Below are positions 2,662 to 61,431 of a stretch of DNA of 61,431 nucleotides, one piece after another (position 1 is the first letter of the stretch; every line of letters starts with the position of its first letter). A program made the position numbers and the translations under genes. The DNA is from Bacteroidales bacterium (lineage in GTDB: Bacteria > Bacteroidota > Bacteroidia > Bacteroidales > UBA932): NCBI GenBank assembly GCA_017455065.1, contig JAFTBU010000042.1, positions 1 to 61,431 on the forward strand, read 5' to 3'. The notes under the pieces are model-generated. The model ran no database searches, was not told the DNA's origin, and saw nothing but the letters and a program-made list of their open reading frames with translations.

Positions 2662-5058
2662 CTAAGGTTGTCTGACAGTTATCGTGTTCTCACCCGGTTC
2701 CAGGGGCCAGGTCTCCCCTTTCCAGACGAAGGTCCCGCCGACGCCCTCGGGCAGTACGATGCGGGCCTGCAGGCGGCGGCCGAGTTCATAGTCCACGCTG
2801 ATCTCCCCGCGGGGGTGCGGCATGGTGCCTCCGATACGGCGCAGCTCTCCCAGCGCCGGAGCTATCACCACTTCGGAGAATCCCGGGGCGGCGCTGTCGA
2901 TGCCCAGCACGGTGCGGAAGAGTTCGATATTGGGGCTGGACCCCCAGGCATGGCATTCCGAACGGGTGGTGGCGAGGTCGGACTTCTCGGCCCAGGTGGT
3001 CATGCCCAGGCGGAGGTTCTCCCGCCAGATGTCCAGCCAGGAGAGGTAATTGTCCGCGAGGCCCGCCCGGGCCATGGCGGAATGGACGTAGAATTTGAAA
3101 TAGATCGACTCTTCGGTGAGGCTGCGGTCGTCCTGCATCCTGGTCGCGATTTCCAGGGCCTGGGAGTCGTCTGCAAGGCCGCAGAGCAGGGCCAGGGCAT
3201 TGGCATGCCTGGAGAAGCTTGAGAGGTCTGAATTGTCCGCAAAAAGGCCTTTGGAGGCATCCCAGTAGTGACGGCGTATGGTGCCGGAGAGCTTTTCCGC
3301 CTCGGCGAGGTACCGCTCCGAGAGTTCCCGGAGGCCGAAGTGGGCCTCGATGTCGGCGGCGAGCCGGTAGGTCATCAGCAGATGGAGGTCGAGTATGGCG
3401 TTGGAGCCGTCCCTGCCGGTCGGGCTCTTGCCCCTCTCGAAACTGTCCACCCAGTCCACGAAAGTCCAGTTGGGCACGTCCCTGAGCGAGCCCTCCCCGT
3501 CCTGGAAATGCCTGAAATAGTCGATGATCATCCGGGCCCCGGGGAGTTTGTCCCTCAGGAAGTCAGGATCGTCCACGTACATCATCCAGTCGTGCAGCAT
3601 CCAGATGTAGCACATGGAGTAGGTGGGGATGATCTGGGGATTGACCGAGGGGTAGCGGCTCTGGGTGATGCCCTCGCTCTGGCGGGACTGGTCCAGATGG
3701 TTCAGCAGGTTGCGCATCAGGGTCGGGTCGCCGGCATTGTACAGCGAGACCTGCTCCTGTATGCGGGCGTCTCCCCCGTACTGGAGCTGCTCGTAGTAGG
3801 GGCAGTCCATGTAGCTTTCCACGGCGCAGAGGCGGGCCGTCCTCCAGCCTGTCTCCAGCAGGTCCTGAAGGGTCTTGTCATCAGTGCGGAGCGAAGCCTT
3901 CAACTCGAAGGGATAGCCGGTGAAAGTGCTGTAGATGTCGCTGAAAAAGAGCTCCTGCGCCCCTGTCTCTACCGTCACTTCTATATAACGGAAAGTCCTG
4001 AAAGAGAGCGGGGTGAATTCCTGCGAGGCGCTTCCGTCAGGAAGTATCACATCGGTGCGGCCGATGAAGACCTTGTCCTCGATTTCGTTCCTGTCGCCTT
4101 TGCGGAAGTCCTTCCCGACCGGAGCTTCAGAATAGACAATGGAGACCTTGGCCCCCTTGCCCCCGTCGAAGACGAAGGTGGGATAGGCGTTGGTCAATGT
4201 GCCCTGGTCCAGCAGGAAGGAAGCCTTGGTGCCGGCGGGTATGGTGATGCTGCTGTCCCAGGAGGATGTGGCCCGCAGGGGGTCGGAGCCGTGTTTTGAG
4301 GCAATTATGACGTTGTCGCTGCGGCGCACAGAGGCGAAGCGCTGGGGAGTGCGCTCCAGCTGCGGCAGCGGCGAAGGCACCAGCCTCCAGGTCTTGCCGC
4401 AGTCGATGCCGACGGTGAGCTTGGGTGTGCCGCGGCTGATGCGGCGGGGCTGCTGCCAGGCGCTGTCGTCGAACACCACGTCCTGCCAGCCCCTGACCCG
4501 CAGGGACATGTCGGTCTTTTCCGAAGGCGGCGCTACGAAATATCCCATCACGAAGCCCTCATTGCACACCGAAGAGCTCTTGTCGGCGAGGCACTTCCAT
4601 CCGGAACCTTCCGTCCCGGTATTGAGGAACTCCGACTGCGGGGCGGCTCCCTGCATGATGAAGGCAGTGCGGAGGGAGAACTGCGCCTCCGCCCTCGAGG
4701 GGCCTTCGTTCCAGACGAGGGCTGAGACCACATTGGCCCCGGGATGGAGCAGGGGCGCGAGGTCCACCTCCTCATAGTTCCAATGCTCGATGTCGCAGCG
4801 GGCGGGTCCCAGGGACACCAGTTCCCCATTGACATAGAGTTTGTAGCGGTTGTCGGCGGAAACCAGCACCGGAAGGGTCGGAGGCACCGCGGCGAGGTCG
4901 AAGGCGTTGCGGAAAAGATAGACGCCGTACCCCTGGGGGTCGGCTCCGGGCACATCCACCCAATGGGCGTCCCACTGCCGGGTCTGAAGTGGCCCGGGTG
5001 CCGCCTGGACCGATACGGCCAAGATCATCGCGGCTGCGAGGGCTGGAATCAATTTCAT
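2662..5058 (-). CDS. Alpha-L-rhamnosidase, GH78
   Basis: This 798-residue secreted protein has a type I-like signal peptide (MKLIPALAAAMILAVSVQAA). N-terminal beta-sandwich domains (about 30-370, with YKLYVNGE near 73) precede an (alpha/alpha)6 barrel. The barrel entry carries DCPYYEQLQYGGDAR (418-432), the hallmark of bacterial alpha-L-rhamnosidases, in which the acidic residues help form the active site; a further conserved block is FVDWVDSFERG. The C-terminal GRRLQARIVLPEGVGG region is the usual closing beta-sandwich. It removes terminal alpha-L-rhamnose, probably in the periplasm. It is transcribed first in the minus-strand pair with the GH2 uronidase and diverges from the GH106 gene across a 70-nt gap, so the three enzymes can share regulation. 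Confidence 0.88.
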   Translation of the reverse strand: MKLIPALAAAMILAVSVQAAPGPLQTRQWDAHWVDVPGADPQGYGVYLFRNAFDLAAVPPTLPVLVSADNRYKLYVNGELVSLGPARCDIEHWNYEEVDLAPLLHPGANVVSALVWNEGPSRAEAQFSLRTAFIMQGAAPQSEFLNTGTEGSGWKCLADKSSSVCNEGFVMGYFVAPPSEKTDMSLRVRGWQDVVFDDSAWQQPRRISRGTPKLTVGIDCGKTWRLVPSPLPQLERTPQRFASVRRSDNVIIASKHGSDPLRATSSWDSSITIPAGTKASFLLDQGTLTNAYPTFVFDGGKGAKVSIVYSEAPVGKDFRKGDRNEIEDKVFIGRTDVILPDGSASQEFTPLSFRTFRYIEVTVETGAQELFFSDIYSTFTGYPFELKASLRTDDKTLQDLLETGWRTARLCAVESYMDCPYYEQLQYGGDARIQEQVSLYNAGDPTLMRNLLNHLDQSRQSEGITQSRYPSVNPQIIPTYSMCYIWMLHDWMMYVDDPDFLRDKLPGARMIIDYFRHFQDGEGSLRDVPNWTFVDWVDSFERGKSPTGRDGSNAILDLHLLMTYRLAADIEAHFGLRELSERYLAEAEKLSGTIRRHYWDASKGLFADNSDLSSFSRHANALALLCGLADDSQALEIATRMQDDRSLTEESIYFKFYVHSAMARAGLADNYLSWLDIWRENLRLGMTTWAEKSDLATTRSECHAWGSSPNIELFRTVLGIDSAAPGFSEVVIAPALGELRRIGGTMPHPRGEISVDYELGRRLQARIVLPEGVGGTFVWKGETWPLEPGENTITVRQP

Positions 5059-51477: not shown

Positions 51478-52605
51478 TCAAAGATTGGAATCCAGGTTGT
51501 AATCAGTTATCTTCTCGGACAATTCGAAATACAGGTATGCGGCATTGAAAGGAATGTTCTCGGAGAGGGCATACTCCGCGCTCTGGGTGAGGGCGTAGAG
51601 CTGCTCCTGGATATCCTGCCTCTGTCTCTGGACGGGAAGGAGCTCAGCGCGGCAGCAGTCCATGGCACCTGCCACGGCATTACGGTAGCTGGGGAGATAT
51701 TCCTCGTAGAACTTGCTCCTGTACTCAAACCACTGGATACAGGCCGCTTTCACACGTGCCATTGCAGCTTCATGGGCGGCGCCGCCATTCTCAGCAGTAT
51801 CTTCCTCGGCCAGCACTGCCTGGTGGATCTCCTCCTGCATGGCTTCGTCAGTCTTGCGGTACTTCCTGTCGAACAGAGCGATGCCTTCCTTCTTGGCCGA
51901 TTCGATCATATTGGTGGCCTTGTTCTGGAGGCGGAGCTCTTCCTGACCCAGCCTGGACATCTCAGTCACCAGCTGATACTGCTTCTGGTTGGAAGCCCTC
52001 TGACCTCTTCCGGCGTTCATCTTTGCAGTCATGGAAGCACCCAGGCCGGATTCCTGCATGAACTGGGCACGCTGCTCTTCAGTCATGTTGGACATGGCTT
52101 CGATATCCTTGGCGGTGAGCCCGCCGGTCTGGGCAGCCATCACCTTGCTGGCCATGGCTTTCGCTTCTTCTTCGGAAAGTTCGCTGCCCTGAAGCCTGGC
52201 GAAGTCGGCCTGGCTCAGGCCCATGCTGCTCAGACGGCTGCTTAAGCCAGCCATGGCCATAGCCTTGGCTTCCGCTTCACTCATCCCGGCCACCTGGCTG
52301 ACGGTCTTGTTGGTCCCGGCGACTTTTCCCCCCATCGCGGAACGCTGGAGTGAGGGGGCCAGGGTTTTAGCCTGCATATCCTGGATCTGGTCATTGGCTC
52401 TGTTCCAAGCCTCCATGAACTTATTGATAACATCGCTGTCCGGAACATCCACATCGCCTGGACTGTTGGCCGCACGCCAGTCACCGAGCAAAGCGGCGGT
52501 GGAAGGCAGGTCGGGCGTCATGCCCATCACGGCTTCGGGAGTCATCTGCGCCATCGCGGGAACGGCAAGGGCGGCAGCTACAAGGGTGATCAGTATCTTT
52601 TTCAT
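51478..52605 (-). CDS. Secreted protein of unknown function, Met/Ala/Glu-rich and helical
   Basis: I do not recognise this 375-residue protein. It has a signal peptide (MKKILITLVAAALAVPAMAQ). After this it is rich in Met, Ala, Glu and Gln with repeating segments such as GMSEAEAKAMAM and ELSEEEAKAMASKVM, consistent with long helices or coiled coil. A short glycine/threonine stretch (about 92-105) breaks the pattern. The C-terminal part (about 260-375) has several aromatic residues and two cysteines. The gene is 5 nt downstream of the OmpA-family gene, so both are probably made together; an envelope or periplasmic role is likely. No enzyme motif is visible. Confidence 0.8.
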   Translation of the reverse strand: MKKILITLVAAALAVPAMAQMTPEAVMGMTPDLPSTAALLGDWRAANSPGDVDVPDSDVINKFMEAWNRANDQIQDMQAKTLAPSLQRSAMGGKVAGTNKTVSQVAGMSEAEAKAMAMAGLSSRLSSMGLSQADFARLQGSELSEEEAKAMASKVMAAQTGGLTAKDIEAMSNMTEEQRAQFMQESGLGASMTAKMNAGRGQRASNQKQYQLVTEMSRLGQEELRLQNKATNMIESAKKEGIALFDRKYRKTDEAMQEEIHQAVLAEEDTAENGGAAHEAAMARVKAACIQWFEYRSKFYEEYLPSYRNAVAGAMDCCRAELLPVQRQRQDIQEQLYALTQSAEYALSENIPFNAAYLYFELSEKITDYNLDSNL

Positions 52606-52610
52606 GACCT

Positions 52611-53924
52611 TTATTTCTTTACGAATTCGACTCTGCGGTTCTTTGCACGGCCTTCGTCGGTGCTGTTGGAGGCAATGGGCTGGTGGGAACCCTTGCCGAC
52701 GGGGGTGAGGCGGGCGGAGGCTATCCCCTGCTCCACCAAGGCGGCGACTATGGCTTCAGCCCTCTTCTGGCTGAGAGGGTCGTTGACTGCATCGGAACCG
52801 GTGGCGTCGCAGTGGCCCTGGACCTCGAATTCCACGCCTGCATTGTCCTTCATCAGCTGGGCGATACGGTTGATCTCGACCATCGACTCGGGCTTGAGGT
52901 CGGCCTTGCCGGTCTCGAAAGTGATGGCATAGGTCACGATCTTTCCCTCGCTGGCGAGGCGGTCGTACAGAGGCACTGCACCCTGGGCGAGACGGACATT
53001 GCCGACGCCGCTGTAGATATAGTTTCCGGAGTGCTTGAACCAGAAACTTTTGGGAGCGAAGGCAATGGGGATATTGATGATACGCATGCCGTTGATATAG
53101 CCCTTGAAGGCCCTTTTATTGAAAGAGATGGCAAAATGATTCCATTCTCCGGGTTTCAGAGGATTGTCCTGTCCGTTGTAATCTGAAAAGCCGTCGTTCA
53201 GTCCCAGCTCCTTTTCGCCACGGAGATAATTGGATGCGTCAGGCCTCATGATACTCCACCTGATACTGGAAGAACCGTCTCCACGGTAATAAAATTCAAC
53301 GGTTCCGCATTCGTTATTACCATTATCTATGGCCCCACCGTTACCGAAAACCAGGGAGAGCGTGTTGCTGCCGCTTTCGCGATCGTCTGTGTAATCTCCC
53401 GGGACACCCAGGAACACATCATATTCCAGAGTGAAGACATCCGGAAGGAAAGCATTCTGTTCTTTCATCAGAGGGATTACAGCTCCGCTTCCGTCATCTG
53501 TGAAAGCGATGATCTTGCGCCCTTCGATGGATCCCACTTCGGCATAGCCGTCGACAAGGTCCCATCTGGACGGGAATTCTCCCAACTTTTCATCGGCGAA
53601 ATCGTCCTCAAAGAAAATCTCGTCGCCGGGGACGAAATCACTCTTGGCGTAACCGGTATCCACACTCTTCTTGGCGGCATTGCCGGCTGCGGGCTGGGCA
53701 GCCGCAATCTCCTCCTGGGGCTTGGCCTCTTCTTTATTGGCCTGCTTGTCTTTCTTGCCGAGTTTGCCGTCGAGCACGTCGTTCACGGCATTCTCCACCT
53801 TTTCTCCGAGTTTATTCTCGACTGCCTGCTTGGCCCTTTCGCCGAGATTCCTCAGCAGGCCCTGGGCGCTGGCCGCGGTACTGGTCAGAGCCAGTGCCAA
53901 CATTACGATAAAGATTCTTTTCAT
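52611..53924 (-). CDS. OmpA-family protein with a central lectin-like domain
   Basis: This 437-residue exported protein has a signal peptide (MKRIFIVMLALALTSTAASAQ). An N-terminal helical segment (about 25-75) is rich in Lys and Glu. A central beta-rich domain (about 95-310, FFEDDFADEKLGEFPSRW, YDVFLGVPGDY) resembles LamG/concanavalin-like folds. The C-terminal OmpA domain (about 325-437) contains TFETGKADLKPES, EVQGHCDATGSD and SQKRAEAIVAAL, a peptidoglycan-binding signature with AKNRRVEF near the end. The beta-barrel of classical OmpA is absent. It probably tethers a carbohydrate- or protein-binding module to the cell wall. It is followed by the unknown secreted protein and preceded by the small LuxR-type gene. 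Confidence 0.85.
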   Translation of the reverse strand: MKRIFIVMLALALTSTAASAQGLLRNLGERAKQAVENKLGEKVENAVNDVLDGKLGKKDKQANKEEAKPQEEIAAAQPAAGNAAKKSVDTGYAKSDFVPGDEIFFEDDFADEKLGEFPSRWDLVDGYAEVGSIEGRKIIAFTDDGSGAVIPLMKEQNAFLPDVFTLEYDVFLGVPGDYTDDRESGSNTLSLVFGNGGAIDNGNNECGTVEFYYRGDGSSSIRWSIMRPDASNYLRGEKELGLNDGFSDYNGQDNPLKPGEWNHFAISFNKRAFKGYINGMRIINIPIAFAPKSFWFKHSGNYIYSGVGNVRLAQGAVPLYDRLASEGKIVTYAITFETGKADLKPESMVEINRIAQLMKDNAGVEFEVQGHCDATGSDAVNDPLSQKRAEAIVAALVEQGIASARLTPVGKGSHQPIASNSTDEGRAKNRRVEFVKK

Positions 53925-53947
53925 GGTATCGTGATATTAGTTTGTGT

Positions 53948-54163
53948 TCAAAGGAAATGCCGTTCCACCGCTTTCATGATCATCTCGGAAGATGTGGCTG
54001 CGGAGAATTTCTCGAGAAGCCGTTTCCGGTACCATTTCACGGTCTCCGGAGACAGCTTGATCAAAGCTGCTATCTGAGGGGTAGTCCGGCCTTTCGCCAC
54101 TTCGGACAAAATCAGTCTCTCTTTTTCCGACAGAGCGATAGGGTTTTCGTATCTTTCAGCCAT
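53948..54163 (-). CDS. Stand-alone LuxR-type helix-turn-helix protein, 71 residues
   Basis: The whole protein is one GerE/LuxR DNA-binding domain: LSEKERLILSEVAKG, TTPQIAALIKLSPETVKWYRKRLLEKF. There is no receiver, sensor or membrane segment. The recognition helix (LSPETVKWYRKRLL) nearly matches that of the divergent TPR regulator at 54293 (LSPETIKWYRKKLL), and both share the unusual WYRK in place of the common KxHxxN. It lies 23 nt upstream of the OmpA-family gene on the same strand. It may compete with, or work with, the membrane regulator at shared sites in the 129-nt gap. Function is inferred from domain content only. Confidence 0.85.
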   Translation of the reverse strand: MAERYENPIALSEKERLILSEVAKGRTTPQIAALIKLSPETVKWYRKRLLEKFSAATSSEMIMKAVERHFL

Positions 54164-54215
54164 TTGCGAAGTTTTTGTTCTTTTGCAAATTTCGACTATT
54201 TAGGACTATTAAACA

Positions 54216-54251
54216 CCACTCAAAAGGGTGGAAATCACCACCCTAAAGGGT
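54216..54251. promoter_or_regulatory. Twin dyad operator between the two LuxR-type genes
   Basis: Two inverted repeats lie side by side: CCACTC-AAAA-GGGTGG (54216-54231, one mismatch) and ACCCT-AA-AGGGT (54240-54251, perfect). Their centres are 22 bp apart, about two helical turns. They sit just upstream of the -33 box of the TPR regulator, where an activator would bind. Confidence 0.6.
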
Positions 54252-54257
54252 AGAATA

Positions 54258-54288
54258 TTTGTTTTGGAAGTAAAAGACCGTAACTTTG
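54258..54288 (+). promoter_or_regulatory. Perfect Bacteroidota promoter giving a probable leaderless transcript
   Basis: TTTG (54258-54261), exactly 19 nt, and TAACTTTG (54281-54288) match the consensus. The expected transcription start (about 54291-54294) falls at the ATG at 54293. No later in-frame ATG exists before residue 67, so the mRNA is probably leaderless. Confidence 0.7.
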
Positions 54289-54292
54289 TCAT

Positions 54293-55504
54293 ATGCGAAA
54301 CAGCCTCCTCCGATACTGTCTCTTATTTGCTCTCGCCCTATGCACCACGCTCCGGGCGGGGGCCTACAACGACCACCGCGGGCACAACCTCGACTCCCTC
54401 GAGAGGGCCGTCGCCCGGTGGACGCCACAGGCGGTCGACATTGCCAGCGAAAAGGAGCTCCTCCAGCTCAACCGCGACTACCGTGACCTGATGCTGGGGT
54501 ACAACCAGCTGAACGGGGAAAAGAGCGATTACTACGCCCGCAAGGCGCTGGAAATCAGCCGCCCCAGGGGATGGCACGAAGCTGACGCGGACGCCTTCCG
54601 CTACATTGGCATGCATTTCTACGGCAGGGAGCAGTACGACAGCGCCATGGTGTACTACCTCGCCGCCCTGGAGGCCACAGATCTCATGGCCGACGGCACC
54701 GCCTCGGATGACACCTACTCCGCCCTGTACGGCACCATAGGCAATCTCTACAATGTGACGGGCGATATCCCGAAGGCTATGGAGTATTATGAAAAGGCAG
54801 GCAGGATCTTCGACAAACACGGCTGGAACGAAAGCAATTCCACACTCTACTACAATATAGGCGAAACCTGGGTCGATGAAGGCAATTACAAAGAAGCCCG
54901 GAAGGCCTACCAGAAGGCGCTGGACTACGCCAGGGCAGCAGCCGATTCGCTGATGGAGGCCAATGCCCTGAAGGGCCTGGGCCGCATGCACATGGAGCAG
55001 GGGCACACCTGGAAGGCGCTGCGCTACCTCCACGAGGCCGACGGATACTATTCCGCGCACGAGAAGGAGGAGCTGGGCTTTGCCAAGGAAAACTACGAGT
55101 ACATGTCGGCCGCCCTGCTGGCACAGCGCCGTCAATTGATGCTGATGGCGGCCGCTGCGGTGCTGGTGCTGCTCCTGCTGCTGGGCGTCCTGATATTGGC
55201 AGGCCGGCTCCGCGTCACCGCCAAAGAGAAAAAGGAGGTTTCCGAAGTGCTCGAGGAGACCATCGGCGACATGCAGCAGCACGCCTCAGCCGGCGGGGAC
55301 TCCCCCGCCCTTTCCGGCCGCGAAGAAGAGATACTGGATCTGATCGCCAAGGGCTACACCACCGCACAGATAGCCGAGGCCCTGTACCTGAGCCCGGAGA
55401 CCATCAAATGGTACCGCAAGAAGCTGCTCGTCAAATTCGACGTCGCCAACACCGCTGAACTCATTTCCCGGGCCCTTTCACGCCCAGGACGCACCAACGG
55501 ATGA
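54293..55504 (+). CDS. TPR protein with one membrane segment and a cytoplasmic LuxR-type DNA-binding domain
   Basis: This 403-residue protein has a signal peptide (MRNSLLRYCLLFALALCTTLRAGA), tetratricopeptide repeats at about 60-270 (YGTIGNLYNVTGDIPKAMEY, LYYNIGETWVDEGNYKEARK), one membrane helix (281-303), a short charged linker and a GerE/LuxR domain (339-398, LSGREEEILDLIAKGYTTAQ). This is the Bacteroidota arrangement in which a periplasmic TPR sensor is joined across the inner membrane to a DNA-binding head, so the regulator acts from the membrane or after release. It diverges from the 71-residue protein with a nearly identical recognition helix. Its 3' end overlaps the acyltransferase gene on the other strand by 44 nt. 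Confidence 0.85.
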   Translation: MRNSLLRYCLLFALALCTTLRAGAYNDHRGHNLDSLERAVARWTPQAVDIASEKELLQLNRDYRDLMLGYNQLNGEKSDYYARKALEISRPRGWHEADADAFRYIGMHFYGREQYDSAMVYYLAALEATDLMADGTASDDTYSALYGTIGNLYNVTGDIPKAMEYYEKAGRIFDKHGWNESNSTLYYNIGETWVDEGNYKEARKAYQKALDYARAAADSLMEANALKGLGRMHMEQGHTWKALRYLHEADGYYSAHEKEELGFAKENYEYMSAALLAQRRQLMLMAAAAVLVLLLLLGVLILAGRLRVTAKEKKEVSEVLEETIGDMQQHASAGGDSPALSGREEEILDLIAKGYTTAQIAEALYLSPETIKWYRKKLLVKFDVANTAELISRALSRPGRTNG

Positions 55505-56570
55505 AAGGTATCCTGCGGAGCACTTCGTACAGCAGAGGCGAAAGCGTGAACACAGCCACGGTGAGGATGAGATACATGCTCCAGGACGGCAGCTGGGTGT
55601 AAGTCTTCATCATATAGCCAAAGCTCGCCACCACCAGATAATGGACTATATAGAGGCCGTAGCTGCTCCGTGTCATATAGGCGGCGAAAGGACTCGTGCG
55701 GTCCCATTTCGCTTTGAACCAGGCCATCATCGCAAGGCAGGCCAGCCAGCCGTACAGGCAGTTGAGAGGACTCCCCAGATACTGCGGAGAGGTGTTGTCC
55801 TGACCGAAAGTGGTGCCTATCAGGATGCCCCCGGCGACCACGGCACAGGCCAGGAGCGGGACCCAGACCTTGCCCAGAGCCTCCTGCACGCTCTCGTGTG
55901 AAAACACGAAATAGCCCAGCAGGAAGGGGATGAGATAAAACAGAGGCTTGTACAGATTTAAAAGGCCGTCCATGGTCTCCGGGCGGGGATTCTGGATGAG
56001 CGTGTGCTCACCGACCCAGAACAGCACTCCCAGCAGGATGATGCAGAAGATATTCGCTTTGCCGCACCAGTTCCAGAAACGGTCCTTCTTGTCCAGGGCA
56101 CGCACTGCCAGCAGGACCAGGCTCAGCAGCCACAGCAGCTGGATGAACCATAGCGGGCCTATGCCGCTGAAGGCCATGATGATGTATTTCACCGGTCCGG
56201 GCACCCCCTCGAACACGCCTTCGCGCGCGGCCACGACGGTATTGAAATAACCCACCATCCAGTGGAATACGAAAAGACCTATAGTCCCGGGCACCAGGAG
56301 CTTGCGGGTACGGGCGCGCAGCCATTCCCGGGCGCTGTGCCTTTCCAGGGCGTATCGGGCGCTGACGCCCGCCAGGATGAACATCAGGGGCATGAACCAA
56401 GGGTATAGGATATACATCACTACATCCTGATACTGAGGATATTCCGGATAGGGGCCAAAGCCTCCTATACCGCCGAAGACACCCTTGTTGTTGTAGAAAT
56501 ATATTACGTGGTACAGCAGCACCAGGAGCACTGTCACCCAGCGCAGATTGTCAAGCCAATGCTTTCTCAT
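55461..56570 (-). CDS. Integral-membrane acyltransferase (acyltransferase family 3)
   Basis: This 369-residue protein has about ten membrane segments. The N-terminus RKHWLDNLRWVTVLLVLLYH, with His21, is the hallmark of acyltransferase-3 proteins, which transfer acyl groups (often acetyl or succinyl) to sugars of cell-surface glycans. PWFMPLMFILAGVSARYAL and the later SSYGLYIVHY are further family blocks. It overlaps the AbrB-like gene by four nucleotides (ATGA) and is therefore co-translated with it. The acceptor is unknown; an exopolysaccharide or lipopolysaccharide is plausible. Confidence 0.88.
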   Translation of the reverse strand: MRKHWLDNLRWVTVLLVLLYHVIYFYNNKGVFGGIGGFGPYPEYPQYQDVVMYILYPWFMPLMFILAGVSARYALERHSAREWLRARTRKLLVPGTIGLFVFHWMVGYFNTVVAAREGVFEGVPGPVKYIIMAFSGIGPLWFIQLLWLLSLVLLAVRALDKKDRFWNWCGKANIFCIILLGVLFWVGEHTLIQNPRPETMDGLLNLYKPLFYLIPFLLGYFVFSHESVQEALGKVWVPLLACAVVAGGILIGTTFGQDNTSPQYLGSPLNCLYGWLACLAMMAWFKAKWDRTSPFAAYMTRSSYGLYIVHYLVVASFGYMMKTYTQLPSWSMYLILTVAVFTLSPLLYEVLRRIPFIRWCVLGVKGPGK

Positions 56571-57098: not shown

Positions 57099-57119
57099 CC
57101 TTGATCGCTCTGCGTAGCG

Positions 57120-57204
57120 CGGTGAGAGAGGGATTCGAACCCCCGATACGTTTCCGTACACCTGTTTTCGAGGCAGGCTCCTTCAGCCACTCGGACATCT
57201 CACC
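57120..57204 (-). tRNA. tRNA-Ser (anticodon CGA)
   Basis: The minus strand from 57204 to 57120 (85 nt) folds with acceptor GGTGAGA/TCTCACC and discriminator G. The anticodon loop is CTCGAAA (anticodon CGA). A long variable arm (about GTGTACGGAAACGTATC) is the class II feature of tRNA-Ser. The T-loop is GTTCGAAT and CCA is not encoded. One anticodon-stem pair next to the loop (C-A) is mismatched. Confidence 0.92.
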
Positions 57205-57254: not shown

Positions 57255-58727
57255 TCAGACTATGCCCAGCTCCCGCGCCTTGCGGAGCATTTCAGAGACA
57301 TTCTTGACGCCCATCTTGGCATAGATGTGATAACGGTGGGTGTTCACGGTGTGTACGCTGAGGTACAGACGCTCGGCGATGCTGGCCGCGGTGAGGCCCT
57401 CGGCACTGAGGCGAATGATCTCGATCTCGCGGGAGGACAGCCCCAGGTCGGCAATCCTGCGGCTGCGCTCGATGAGTATATCTCCCACATAATCAGCCAC
57501 ATCCGAATTGATAGCCCGAGCCTCCCCGGTGAGCTCGGAGCACCTGAGGCGTATCTCGTCGGCACTCAGGGTGGCGGCCGAAGCTGAAAGTTCGGAAAGA
57601 CCGCTTGCAATGGCATTGGCAGGGTTTTTCAGATCTTTGGACAGCAGGTCTATGATCAGGTCCTTGCTCTCTGACATGTGCTGAAGTTCGGCATTGCGCC
57701 TGCGGACTTTACGGATGCGCATCACGGTCAGGAACACTATGGCTCCCAGCAGCAGGACAGCCAGCAGGAGGAGGAAAATCTGGTAACGCCTCAACTCCAG
57801 CTCATGCTCTTTTTCACTCAGATCGAAACGGGTCTCCATCTCCTGCAGCGCCTCCTCCGACTTCTGCCGCTGGTACTCCTCCATATTCAGCACATACGCA
57901 TCATGCGCCGCGAGGGCCTTGGCATTGTCCCCCACCCTGGTGTAAAGATTGACCAGACGGTCTTCCAGCGCAGCGGCGGTGAGATGGTCCGAGCCGTCGA
58001 GGGCTTCCAGCGAACGCTCGAAATGGCTGATCGCATCTTCATTGCGCCCGCCCTGCTGGAACCAGCGCGAACGGAAAAGGACGCCGTTGCGGCGGAGCCT
58101 GGGGATGGCGCAACTGTCCGCGACGGCCTCGCCCCGGTCCAGGTACTCCCCCGCCTTGCGGTAGAGAGCCATATCGATGGGGTCGTTCCAGCGGTTCTTA
58201 TTGATATACAGCGATCCCGCCACGAAATATGCCTCCGCCAGTTCCTCCGGGGCACCAGCGCGGGAGGCGAGCGAAATGGCCTCATTGGCATACTCCAGAC
58301 CCTCGTCGTTGCGGCCTGTGGCAGGTGAAATCTCGGCGTAGGAGCAAAGTTTGGCCTTGGACACAAGGATGGCGGCGAGTTCCCTGTCCATCCCCTTCCC
58401 CCTGGCGATGGCTTCCGCCGCCAGAGCCTTTTCCCATGCATCCGCGTCGCGGCTGGTCATGATGTCAATGCCCACGATGCAGGACAATGCGGAAACTTCC
58501 CCCGGGGCATCGCCGGTGCGGCGGGCCGTTTCGAGGGCGGCCAGCGCATTTTCCATGGCAGCCTCGAAATGGCGGGATTCGAGTTCCTTGCGCGCCCGGG
58601 CGACGAGTGCCTCAGGGTCCGCGGCGGCATTGTCAATGTCAGAGACCTTCCCCGCCGGCGTACAGGAAAGCAGGGACAATGATAGCATCAGCAGCGGCAG
58701 GAGCCGTCTATAGAAGCGAAAAACCAT
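57255..58727 (-). CDS. TPR lipoprotein-like regulator with membrane helix, kinase-like helix and LuxR domain
   Basis: I start at the ATG at 58727 (490 residues). The longer frame from 58784 would begin upstream of the -7 box (58732-58739), so it is unlikely to be translated. The signal ends in SLSLLSC. Helical TPR-like repeats (about 35-300) are followed by a membrane helix (316-336). The segment MSESKDLIIDLLSKDLKNPANAIASG (351-376) resembles the dimerisation helix of histidine kinases, but the phosphorylated His is replaced by Lys364 (SKDLKNP instead of AHDLRNP). A LuxR/GerE domain closes the protein (428-490, LSSREIEIIRLSAEG, LYLSVHTVNTHRY). There is no ATPase domain. It diverges from the small-protein/fimbrillin-like operon and may regulate it. 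Confidence 0.82.
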   Translation of the reverse strand: MVFRFYRRLLPLLMLSLSLLSCTPAGKVSDIDNAAADPEALVARARKELESRHFEAAMENALAALETARRTGDAPGEVSALSCIVGIDIMTSRDADAWEKALAAEAIARGKGMDRELAAILVSKAKLCSYAEISPATGRNDEGLEYANEAISLASRAGAPEELAEAYFVAGSLYINKNRWNDPIDMALYRKAGEYLDRGEAVADSCAIPRLRRNGVLFRSRWFQQGGRNEDAISHFERSLEALDGSDHLTAAALEDRLVNLYTRVGDNAKALAAHDAYVLNMEEYQRQKSEEALQEMETRFDLSEKEHELELRRYQIFLLLLAVLLLGAIVFLTVMRIRKVRRRNAELQHMSESKDLIIDLLSKDLKNPANAIASGLSELSASAATLSADEIRLRCSELTGEARAINSDVADYVGDILIERSRRIADLGLSSREIEIIRLSAEGLTAASIAERLYLSVHTVNTHRYHIYAKMGVKNVSEMLRKARELGIV

Positions 58728-58731
58728 ATTG

Positions 58732-58739
58732 CAAAGATA
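58732..58739 (-). promoter_or_regulatory. -7 box of the TPR/LuxR regulator
   Basis: CAAAGATA reads TATCTTTG on the minus strand, a perfect TAnnTTTG. It is only 4 nt upstream of the ATG at 58727, which predicts a leaderless mRNA. The -33 region (around 58759-58762) does not match TTTG. Confidence 0.55.
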
Positions 58740-58811
58740 AAAATACTGAAAAATCATTACACCCGGAAAACGGAAAAAAGGCATATTTGGATGCTAAAAC
58801 ATGTTCGCACG

Positions 58812-60790: not shown

Positions 60791-60944
60791 TCGACCGCAG
60801 CCGGACAGGCCAGTTACCGGAGAGTGATCGACCGCAGACGGGCAGGCCGCTTTCAGGCCAGCGTTCCCATTCGCTTTGCTCCTTATGGAGAATAAAGCCG
60901 CAGGAACGCTGGCCTGAAAGCTATTTTAGCTACCCCGGGAGCGG

Positions 60945-61069
60945 CTTTCGCCTCCCCGAGAGCTACTTTCGCTTCCCAGAGAGCGACTTTCGCCTCCCAG
61001 AGAGCGACTTTCGCTTCCCAGAGAGCGACTTTCGCCTCCAAGAGAGCGACTTCGCCTCCCAGGGAGCGG
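60945..61069. repeat. Tandem array of six 21-nt units
   Basis: Units start at 60945, 60966, 60987, 61008, 61029 and 61050; the last lacks one base. The unit is close to CTTTCGCTTCCCAGAGAGCGA, and a C/T at the eighth position alternates between neighbours for the first five, suggesting a 42-nt higher-order unit. Both strands stay open across it because 21 is a multiple of three, but codon content does not support a gene. Confidence 0.9.
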
Positions 61070-61275: not shown

Positions 61276-61431
61276 GGGGGTTCAGTCGCGAAATCGGGCC
61301 TTTTTGCTACCGAAGGGTAGGAGCGCCAGGGGGTTCGGTCGCAAATTCGAGCCTTAGTGCTACCGAAGGGTAGGAGCACCAGGGGGTTCAGTCGCAAATT
61401 CGGGCCTTTTTGCTACCGAAGGTCAGGTCAG
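61276..61431. repeat. Tandem array of 53-nt units running off the right edge
   Basis: Copies start at 61276, 61329 and 61382, each beginning GGGGGTTC(A/G)GTCGC and containing GCTACCGAAGG. The first two copies carry the small dyad CTACC-GAAG-GGTAG. The third copy is cut by the window end and differs after 61422. The whole unit is conserved, with no variable spacer, so this is not a CRISPR array. Confidence 0.9.

Follow-up and report, generated by a model that had tools for sequence, protein, structure and literature searches.

A membrane-tethered LuxR-type regulator and a small soluble partner with matching recognition helices in a genus of the Bacteroidales

Introduction

How are two versions of one DNA-binding domain used when one is attached to the membrane, the other stands alone, and their genes lie back to back across a pair of inverted repeats? 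This question is raised by a locus in a contig of a Bacteroidales bacterium (JAFTBU010000042.1, assembly GCA_017455065.1), whose 61,431 nucleotides are referred to here as the window. A sequence-only reading of the window had described a 71-residue protein made of a LuxR-type HTH, divergent from a regulator with a TPR region and a transmembrane (TM) segment. It had also proposed that the two proteins meet at a shared twin operator beside a promoter, where the soluble one could compete or dimerise with the tethered one and so switch the control of the OmpA-family operon. The gene pair and the dyads between the genes exist as described in the window, and they are found in relatives far above chance. 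The operators and promoters, the co-variation of both proteins with their operators, the distribution of the soluble partner and the mechanism that these features suggest are considered below.

Genes and protein domains at the locus

The two divergent open reading frames are present as claimed (Table 1), and the recognition helices read from their translations are nearly identical (SPETVKWYRKRLL versus SPETIKWYRKKLL). The OmpA-family gene starts 23 bp downstream of the short HTH gene. The 375-residue protein encoded next had no match in Pfam and NCBIfam searches; homologues of it are present at some related loci. On the other side, the regulator gene and a convergent acyltransferase gene (55461-56570, PF01757) share a 44-bp overlap at 55461-55504. 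A second, more distant TPR-LuxR regulator, whose HTH has 36% identity to the short protein, is encoded some 1.8 kb past the regulator gene on the opposite, minus strand (57255-58784), and a tRNA-Ser (cga) gene (57119-57204, minus strand) is flanked by a MazE-like gene and by this second regulator gene. Tandem arrays lie close to the contig end at 60939-61068 (21 bp, 6.2 copies) and 61276-61422 (53 bp, 2.8 copies).

Table 1 Features of the divergent locus in the window
Feature	Position	Strand	Remarks
Tethered regulator, 403 aa	54293..55504	+	N-terminal signal-like segment, TPR region, TM at about residues 284-302, C-terminal GerE/LuxR HTH at residues 339-393
Soluble LuxR-type HTH protein, 71 aa	53948..54163	-	Presumed first gene of the OmpA operon
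OmpA-family protein, 437 aa	52611..53924	-	OmpA C-terminal domain at residues 335-430
375-aa protein	51478..52605	-	Next gene in the presumed operon
Operator 1, CCACTC-AAAA-GGGTGG	54216..54231		One mismatched pair
Operator 2, CCACCC-TAAA-GGGTAG	54238..54253		One mismatched pair; contains a perfect ACCCT-N2-AGGGT
Inferred -33 box TTTG of the regulator gene	54258..54261	+	Read from the sequence
Inferred -7 box TAACTTTG of the regulator gene	54281..54288	+	19 bp after TTTG
Inferred -7 box GAAATTTG of the short HTH-OmpA operon	54186..54193	-	22 bp from operator 1; G in place of the consensus T

Both proteins qualify as PF00196 (GerE/LuxR HTH), the short protein with E 4.5e-13 and the regulator with E 3.3e-14, at 49.0 and 52.7 bits against a gathering score of 23.5. 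The Pfam matches of the regulator are led by TPR models and GerE, and those of the short protein by HTH models. In the short protein the HTH covers residues 11-64 of 71, which fits the stand-alone GerE-like type of about 70 residues; a profile of the short proteins matches GerE itself (PDB 1fse, 74 aa) with E 3.2e-6. A strong internal hydrophobic stretch is present in the window regulator and in all 136 of the 136 regulators collected below. The N-terminus of the window regulator is moderately hydrophobic (1.46), and the signal threshold used is passed by just 61 of the 136. The charges flanking the TM segment are compatible with either orientation; a cytoplasmic HTH and a periplasmic TPR region are the predicted topology.

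Several established families can be set apart by domain content. The Pfam matches of both proteins include no autoinducer-binding domain, so that neither is a quorum-sensing LuxR protein, and their matches include no receiver domain, so that neither is a NarL/FixJ response regulator. The MalT model NF003420 is matched in the HTH part only (27.2 bits against a cutoff of 537), and MalT proteins need an ATPase (STAND) domain. No histidine kinase domain is found among the regulator matches, which separates the regulator from FimS-type sensor kinases. The regulator probably works like a tethered one-component protein of the ToxR/CadC kind without being a member of that group, as its HTH is of the GerE type and no winged HTH is present.

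Distribution of the gene pair

The layout recurs in the genus of the window and is not a one-off. With the short HTH protein as query, a second divergent pair was found in the window genome (C3), and a third regulator (C34) faces an OmpA gene without a short HTH. The window genome therefore holds three paralogous loci with three operator types, two of them with a soluble partner. A contig search with the tethered protein gave 124 loci, of which the best 80 were taken; these come from Bacteroidales or Bacteroidia metagenome-assembled genomes (MAGs; one of Bacteroidaceae), and many are in MAGs named after ruminants. With a threshold of E <= 1e-60, a profile of 14 regulator sequences has matches in 70 of the 200 genus genomes searched; with E <= 1e-40 it has them in just 3 of 149 genomes across the order, the window's own included. 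Two distant regulator homologues from other families of the order (L231 and L232) have, judged by eye, an upstream C-rich dyad of the CCCCC...GGGGG type, a hint that this layout predates the genus.

The 178 regulators collected were reduced to 136 non-redundant ones. Their divergent neighbour is a short LuxR-HTH gene in 59 cases and an OmpA gene directly in 35; neither was detected in 42, just 2 of which start less than 400 bp from where the retrieved sequence begins upstream. Directly behind the short gene, a script that undercounts places an OmpA gene at 37 of 59 loci, and inspection does so at four more (L009, L050, L075 and L125, its known misses). Among the remaining short-gene loci, two records end and 16 have no OmpA gene within 400 bp. 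The OmpA partner is thus common but not universal.

Operators and promoters

The two dyads claimed between the divergent genes are present, 22 bp apart from centre to centre. Within the window alone they are unremarkable, since ACCCTNNAGGGT with up to two mismatches is found 33 times against 28.6 expected, and their significance therefore rests on the relatives. The first set of loci gave 70 non-redundant intergenic regions, 47 of which hold a perfect 6-4-6 dyad; the shuffles average 4.5 such regions and reach 9 at most. A chance dyad was rejected on this strong excess in the relatives, although there is no enrichment within the window. When spacings of 0-12 bp were compared for perfect dyads, only 6 bp (20/70) besides 4 bp exceeded the shuffle maximum; with one mismatch, spacings of 2, 4, 6, 8 and 10 bp each did so in the 70 regions. 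We interpret the other enriched spacings as the same dyads read in different registers. An operator weight matrix (PWM), approximately ACACCACCCNAAAGGGTGGAAA, finds a site above threshold in 66 of the 70 loci, which are the very loci on which it was trained. The dyads are in this respect conserved where the gene pair is kept, and the refuting condition named in the sequence-only reading did not come true. Three of the four loci missed by the PWM (L009, L010 and L060) have a different dyad together with a different recognition helix. L072, which has a short HTH, was counted as OmpA-only in the 47/70 and 66/70 analyses and in the 49/55 analysis of spacing below; this was corrected in the 136-regulator set.

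The promoter placed beside the dyads by the sequence-only reading is also found: TTTG, 19 bp and TAACTTTG stand directly ahead of the regulator ATG at 54293. An E. coli-type promoter scan of the window is uninformative for this phylum. The -7 box ends 4 bp before the ATG, and the regulator mRNA is therefore probably leaderless. A -7 box 4-5 bp before the start codon is found in 58 of the 68 loci where the box was found; the start codons were chosen by script, and this count comes from a run without the preference for a nearby TAnnTTTG that was applied to the 136-regulator set. The regulator mRNA thus appears to be leaderless across the genus. This would be a rare state judged by two Bacteroidetes transcriptomes: in B. 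thetaiotaomicron, 5' UTRs shorter than 10 nt make up about 3.7% (PMC7366714), and in F. psychrophilum the share of leaderless mRNAs is 5.5% (PMC9723704).

Operator 1 holds a fixed position with respect to the other promoter. Its distance to the divergent -7 box is exactly 22 bp in 49 of 55 measurable loci among the 70. When the 55 loci were aligned on operator 1, with no promoter pattern used, GAAATTTG emerged at -12 to -5, and a conserved TGTTT adjoins operator 1 in the same alignment. The -7 box is placed at -12 to -5 in PMC9723704, and PMC3376562 gives -42.5 as the centre of the lux box; together with the 22-bp gap, the box position puts operator 1 where the lux box lies, with its centre at -42.5. 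In most loci the sequence of the divergent -7 box is GAnnTTTG; its first base is G in 45 of 55 loci, where the phylum consensus has T. This G might be an inherent weakness of the promoter that makes an activator necessary. In the window, the start inferred for the operon of the short HTH and OmpA genes places operator 2 at -64.5, and the start inferred for the regulator gene places operators 1 and 2 at -69.5 and -47.5.

The distance from the regulator -7 box to its nearest operator is variable but phased. The distances cluster near 16, 28, 39, 49 and 60 bp, with off-phase values of 10, 22 (twice) and 34. Among 45 representatives a period of about 11 bp is found (R 0.72, Rayleigh p about 7.5e-11), 11 being the best of 8 periods tried and 10-11.5 all being strong. 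Such a period is expected if contact with RNA polymerase requires one face of the helix.

Recognition helices and operator classes

Operators were called without a half-site consensus, with preference for an A/T-rich core and flank, which gave 105 calls for 116 regulators; 11 of the 116 had no call, and 20 of the 136 were left out for lack of the helix pattern. Helix class agrees with operator class in 99 of the 105 loci, the helix classes having been defined after the operator list had been seen. The SxET helix goes with the CCACCC operator (71 loci), S[LIQ][APS]T with a CTATCC-like operator (14 loci), TEQ..RQR with TTATAC (9 loci) and TEQ..RMR with CTAAAC (5 loci). The six disagreements consist of five plainly wrong dyads and L125, whose regulator has an aberrant helix stretch. 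The helix of the soluble partner agrees with the operator class in 53 of 54 short-HTH loci, the exception being a wrong dyad; one further short protein is incomplete and stands outside the 54. One helix residue, K, Q or M, we take to be the equivalent of NarL Lys192; a literature search for a DNA contact of NarL Lys192 gave no match.

The helix classes are largely clades, with 5 changes on the regulator tree, so that few independent helix-operator events are counted. In a partial Mantel test that controls for the TPR part, the association is moderate (r 0.288, 36 of 5000 permutations as high), and the part of the HTH outside the recognition helix is correlated with the operator no less well (0.385 when measured in the same way).

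Exact operator sites are nearly confined to these loci. A search of 200 genomes from the genus found CCACCCNAAAGGGKGGAA 17 times, TTATACNAAAGTATAA 11 times and CTAAACNAAAGTTTAGAA 4 times, against 0, 9 and 1 matches of the reversed-pattern controls. A family regulator detected by the profile lies downstream of 14 of the 17, 11 of the 11 and 4 of the 4. At the three leftover CCACCCNAAAGGGKGGAA places, the regulator is cut by a contig end, the regulator has an internal deletion, or an OmpA gene stands without a detectable regulator; a family regulator is thus present at 31 of the 32 exact matches. These strict patterns are specific but not sensitive: they matched in 16, 11 and 4 genomes, whereas 70 of the 200 hold a regulator, and both window operators miss the strict CCACCC pattern by one base each. 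At one of these regulator genes (L251 in G147, 2944-3333), a deletion fuses the first 34 regulator profile positions to the HTH (348-406); the product has neither TPR nor TM part, and the adjoining operator is intact.

Within the window genome, TTATACNAAAGTATAA and CTAAACNAAAGTTTAGAA occur once each, at their own loci. No convincing site of the window type was found elsewhere among the places examined, which were 6 of 8 places (the other 2 are the window operators) and 4 other one-mismatch places. A wide regulon is therefore not supported for this genome: the other sites examined lie in stop-free frames and reach PWM scores of at most 18.6, against 33.2 for operator 1. A two-mismatch search gave a total of 100 places per strand, compared with 183 when the pattern was reversed.

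That the tethered and the soluble protein share operators is, by inference, well supported: both helices follow the operator type, the dyads are conserved and the sites are nearly exclusive to these loci.

Evolution of the soluble partner and the twin site

The soluble and tethered HTH domains were compared on a tree of 98 domains from 49 loci with one outgroup. For the most part they lie apart: 2 changes suffice, and none of 500 shuffles needed so few. Five soluble HTHs of the L146 group are placed among the tethered ones. All soluble HTHs fall on one side in just 3% of the bootstrap trees; a single clade of soluble HTHs is not rejected (p-AU 0.519), and its likelihood is slightly higher. Because the two kinds are largely separate, the helices of both proteins have probably changed in parallel. 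The simplest reading would be an old split into soluble and tethered forms, followed by matched re-tuning of both proteins, although parallel re-tuning is drawn from a tree of 62 columns. Across loci, distances among soluble HTHs correlate with those among tethered HTHs (r 0.635, reached in none of 5000 permutations), a correlation that shared descent of the loci alone would also give.

In relatives, the short gene is under purifying selection, with a median dN/dS of 0.08 over 100 pairs and 0.10 over 14 disjoint pairs; none of the 100 pairs reaches 1. Its product is 61-75 residues long in 58 of 59 family members. Its presence changes 16 times on the best regulator tree, a figure that short genes missed in draft genomes would inflate, and 11 independent pairs lie on supported branches. 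Because it appears and disappears repeatedly along this tree, the short gene looks accessory. The switch by competition or heterodimer formation in the sequence-only reading stands as a hypothesis.

The second operator accompanies the short gene in part of the family. Within the SxET class, 26 of 41 short-HTH loci have a further site at a distance of 20-24 bp, against 1 of 31 OmpA-only loci (Fisher p 6e-8), with a chance level in shuffles of 2/1500; among representatives the figures are 11 of 20 against 1 of 12 (p 0.011). The S[LIQ][APS]T class has twin sites at 9 of 9 short-HTH loci, 2 of 2 OmpA-only loci and 0 of 4 loci with neither, and the TTATAC and CTAAAC classes have them at 0 of 5 short-HTH loci. 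Twin sites are missing from 15 of the 41 SxET short-HTH loci and are present at 3 loci in which no short gene was scored. That twin site and short HTH are strictly linked was not accepted: the independent tree pairs, which are too few, give a median p of 0.25, with the direction nearly always as expected. Some link between the twin site and the soluble protein is probable. The twin operator of the sequence-only reading therefore holds as a common companion of the short HTH and fails as a universal feature, the steady element being the single operator 1.

Proposed mechanism and alternatives

The locus is best explained, with a probability of roughly 65%, as a local membrane-signalled one-component system with a built-in soluble partner that would act on the same operators. 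The periplasmic TPR domain of the tethered regulator would sense an envelope signal, and its cytoplasmic HTH would bind operator 1 at -42.5 to activate the divergent operon from the weak -7 box GAAATTTG. At loci of this kind the operon would first encode a soluble HTH protein, about 71 residues long and equal in DNA specificity, followed here by the OmpA-family envelope protein. The soluble HTH would then occupy operators 1 and 2. It may displace the tethered activator and so produce negative feedback, which we tentatively and slightly prefer because an untethered HTH has no signal input. Nearly as likely is positive feedback, in which the soluble HTH would bind beside the tethered activator or sustain the operon in the absence of the signal. 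The tethered protein is taken as the activator since regulator, operator 1 and OmpA persist without the short gene, whose presence has changed 16 times. The best reading of the soluble HTH may therefore be that of a dispensable, later and accessory feedback partner.

The roles could also be reversed, the soluble HTH being the main direct activator of the OmpA operon in the manner of GerE and the tethered protein only starting or inhibiting it, so that the circuit would be a positive-feedback latch. The short gene is the first of the presumed operon, its helix class matches, and GerE is a stand-alone HTH of about the same size. However, operator 1 and the 22-bp spacing are kept at many loci scored without the short gene. 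Together with the repeated changes in its presence, this means that activation cannot generally depend on the short gene, and we consider the reversed roles unlikely.

A different kind of explanation assigns the dyads to an RNA hairpin or to the sites of another protein, with the HTH match arising only through the common descent of these loci. In its favour, GC-rich dyads are able to fold into hairpins, helix classes largely coincide with clades, and the HTH outside the recognition helix follows the operator as well. On the other hand, the dyads lie upstream of both inferred transcription starts, Rfam gives no match up to E 1 in 53800-54600, on which an RNA hairpin element was rejected, half-sites differ between paralogues in step with both helices, and exact sites are found almost solely at these regulators. 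We regard this explanation as quite improbable. That the soluble HTH is a decaying, functionless relic of a duplicated regulator is hardly credible: the short gene is absent at many loci and 35 regulators face OmpA directly, but its tight lengths, its low dN/dS and the agreement of its helix class with the operator all speak against decay.

Relation to known systems and significance

The short protein resembles GerE (PDB 1fse) and PedR (NCBIfam NF052366), proteins of about 70 residues with little beyond the GerE/LuxR HTH; the 74-position PedR model is matched by the HTH of the tethered protein with 26.7 bits against a cutoff of 120. Unlike GerE and PedR, the short HTH is paired with a tethered protein of matching helix class and is encoded in an operon presumably controlled by both. 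The TPR region of the regulator is weakly similar to FimS of the Porphyromonas gingivalis type (NCBIfam NF053520; 49.4 bits, E 2.2e-13, cutoff 600), but its LuxR HTH output is on the same chain, with neither kinase nor response regulator. As with LuxR on the lux box (PMC3376562), the dyad is centred at -42.5 of the regulated operon, and a TPR region and membrane anchor take the place of the autoinducer-binding domain of LuxR.

Two further comparisons concern architecture. ToxR and CadC have a periplasmic sensor, one TM segment and a cytoplasmic winged-HTH DNA-binding domain. The tethered regulator, with its predicted topology, would likewise combine a periplasmic sensor, a single TM and a cytoplasmic DNA-binding domain, and it differs in its N-terminal TPR sensor, its C-terminal GerE-type HTH and its soluble HTH-only partner. 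TrlR, a truncated inhibitor of TraR, keeps the sensing part and lacks the HTH. As proposed here, a second protein of the same family likewise modulates the first, in contrast to TrlR by a short protein that keeps the HTH alone.

Each component is thus known: stand-alone GerE-like proteins, TPR sensors as in FimS, tethered one-component activators and LuxR-type activation from -42.5. No description of their combination with paired helices and private operators was found among titles and opening lines of abstracts in the literature searched, which took in few subscription journals, and little literature was found on TPR-LuxR membrane regulators in this phylum. The wider proposition, to which we give an even chance, is that the genus carries mutually insulated, membrane-signalled regulators in which tethered and soluble proteins have been re-tuned in parallel for each private operator, as a reusable module for sensing and then limiting or latching. 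The soluble copy would be a feedback element encoded within the very operon under its control. If so, the core is present in the window genome in three orthogonal copies, and a soluble partner accompanies two. The family offers a testable case of two differently located proteins sharing one operator and co-evolving with it. The natural helix-operator pairs would amount to a specificity code for LuxR-type domains and might serve as orthogonal regulators.
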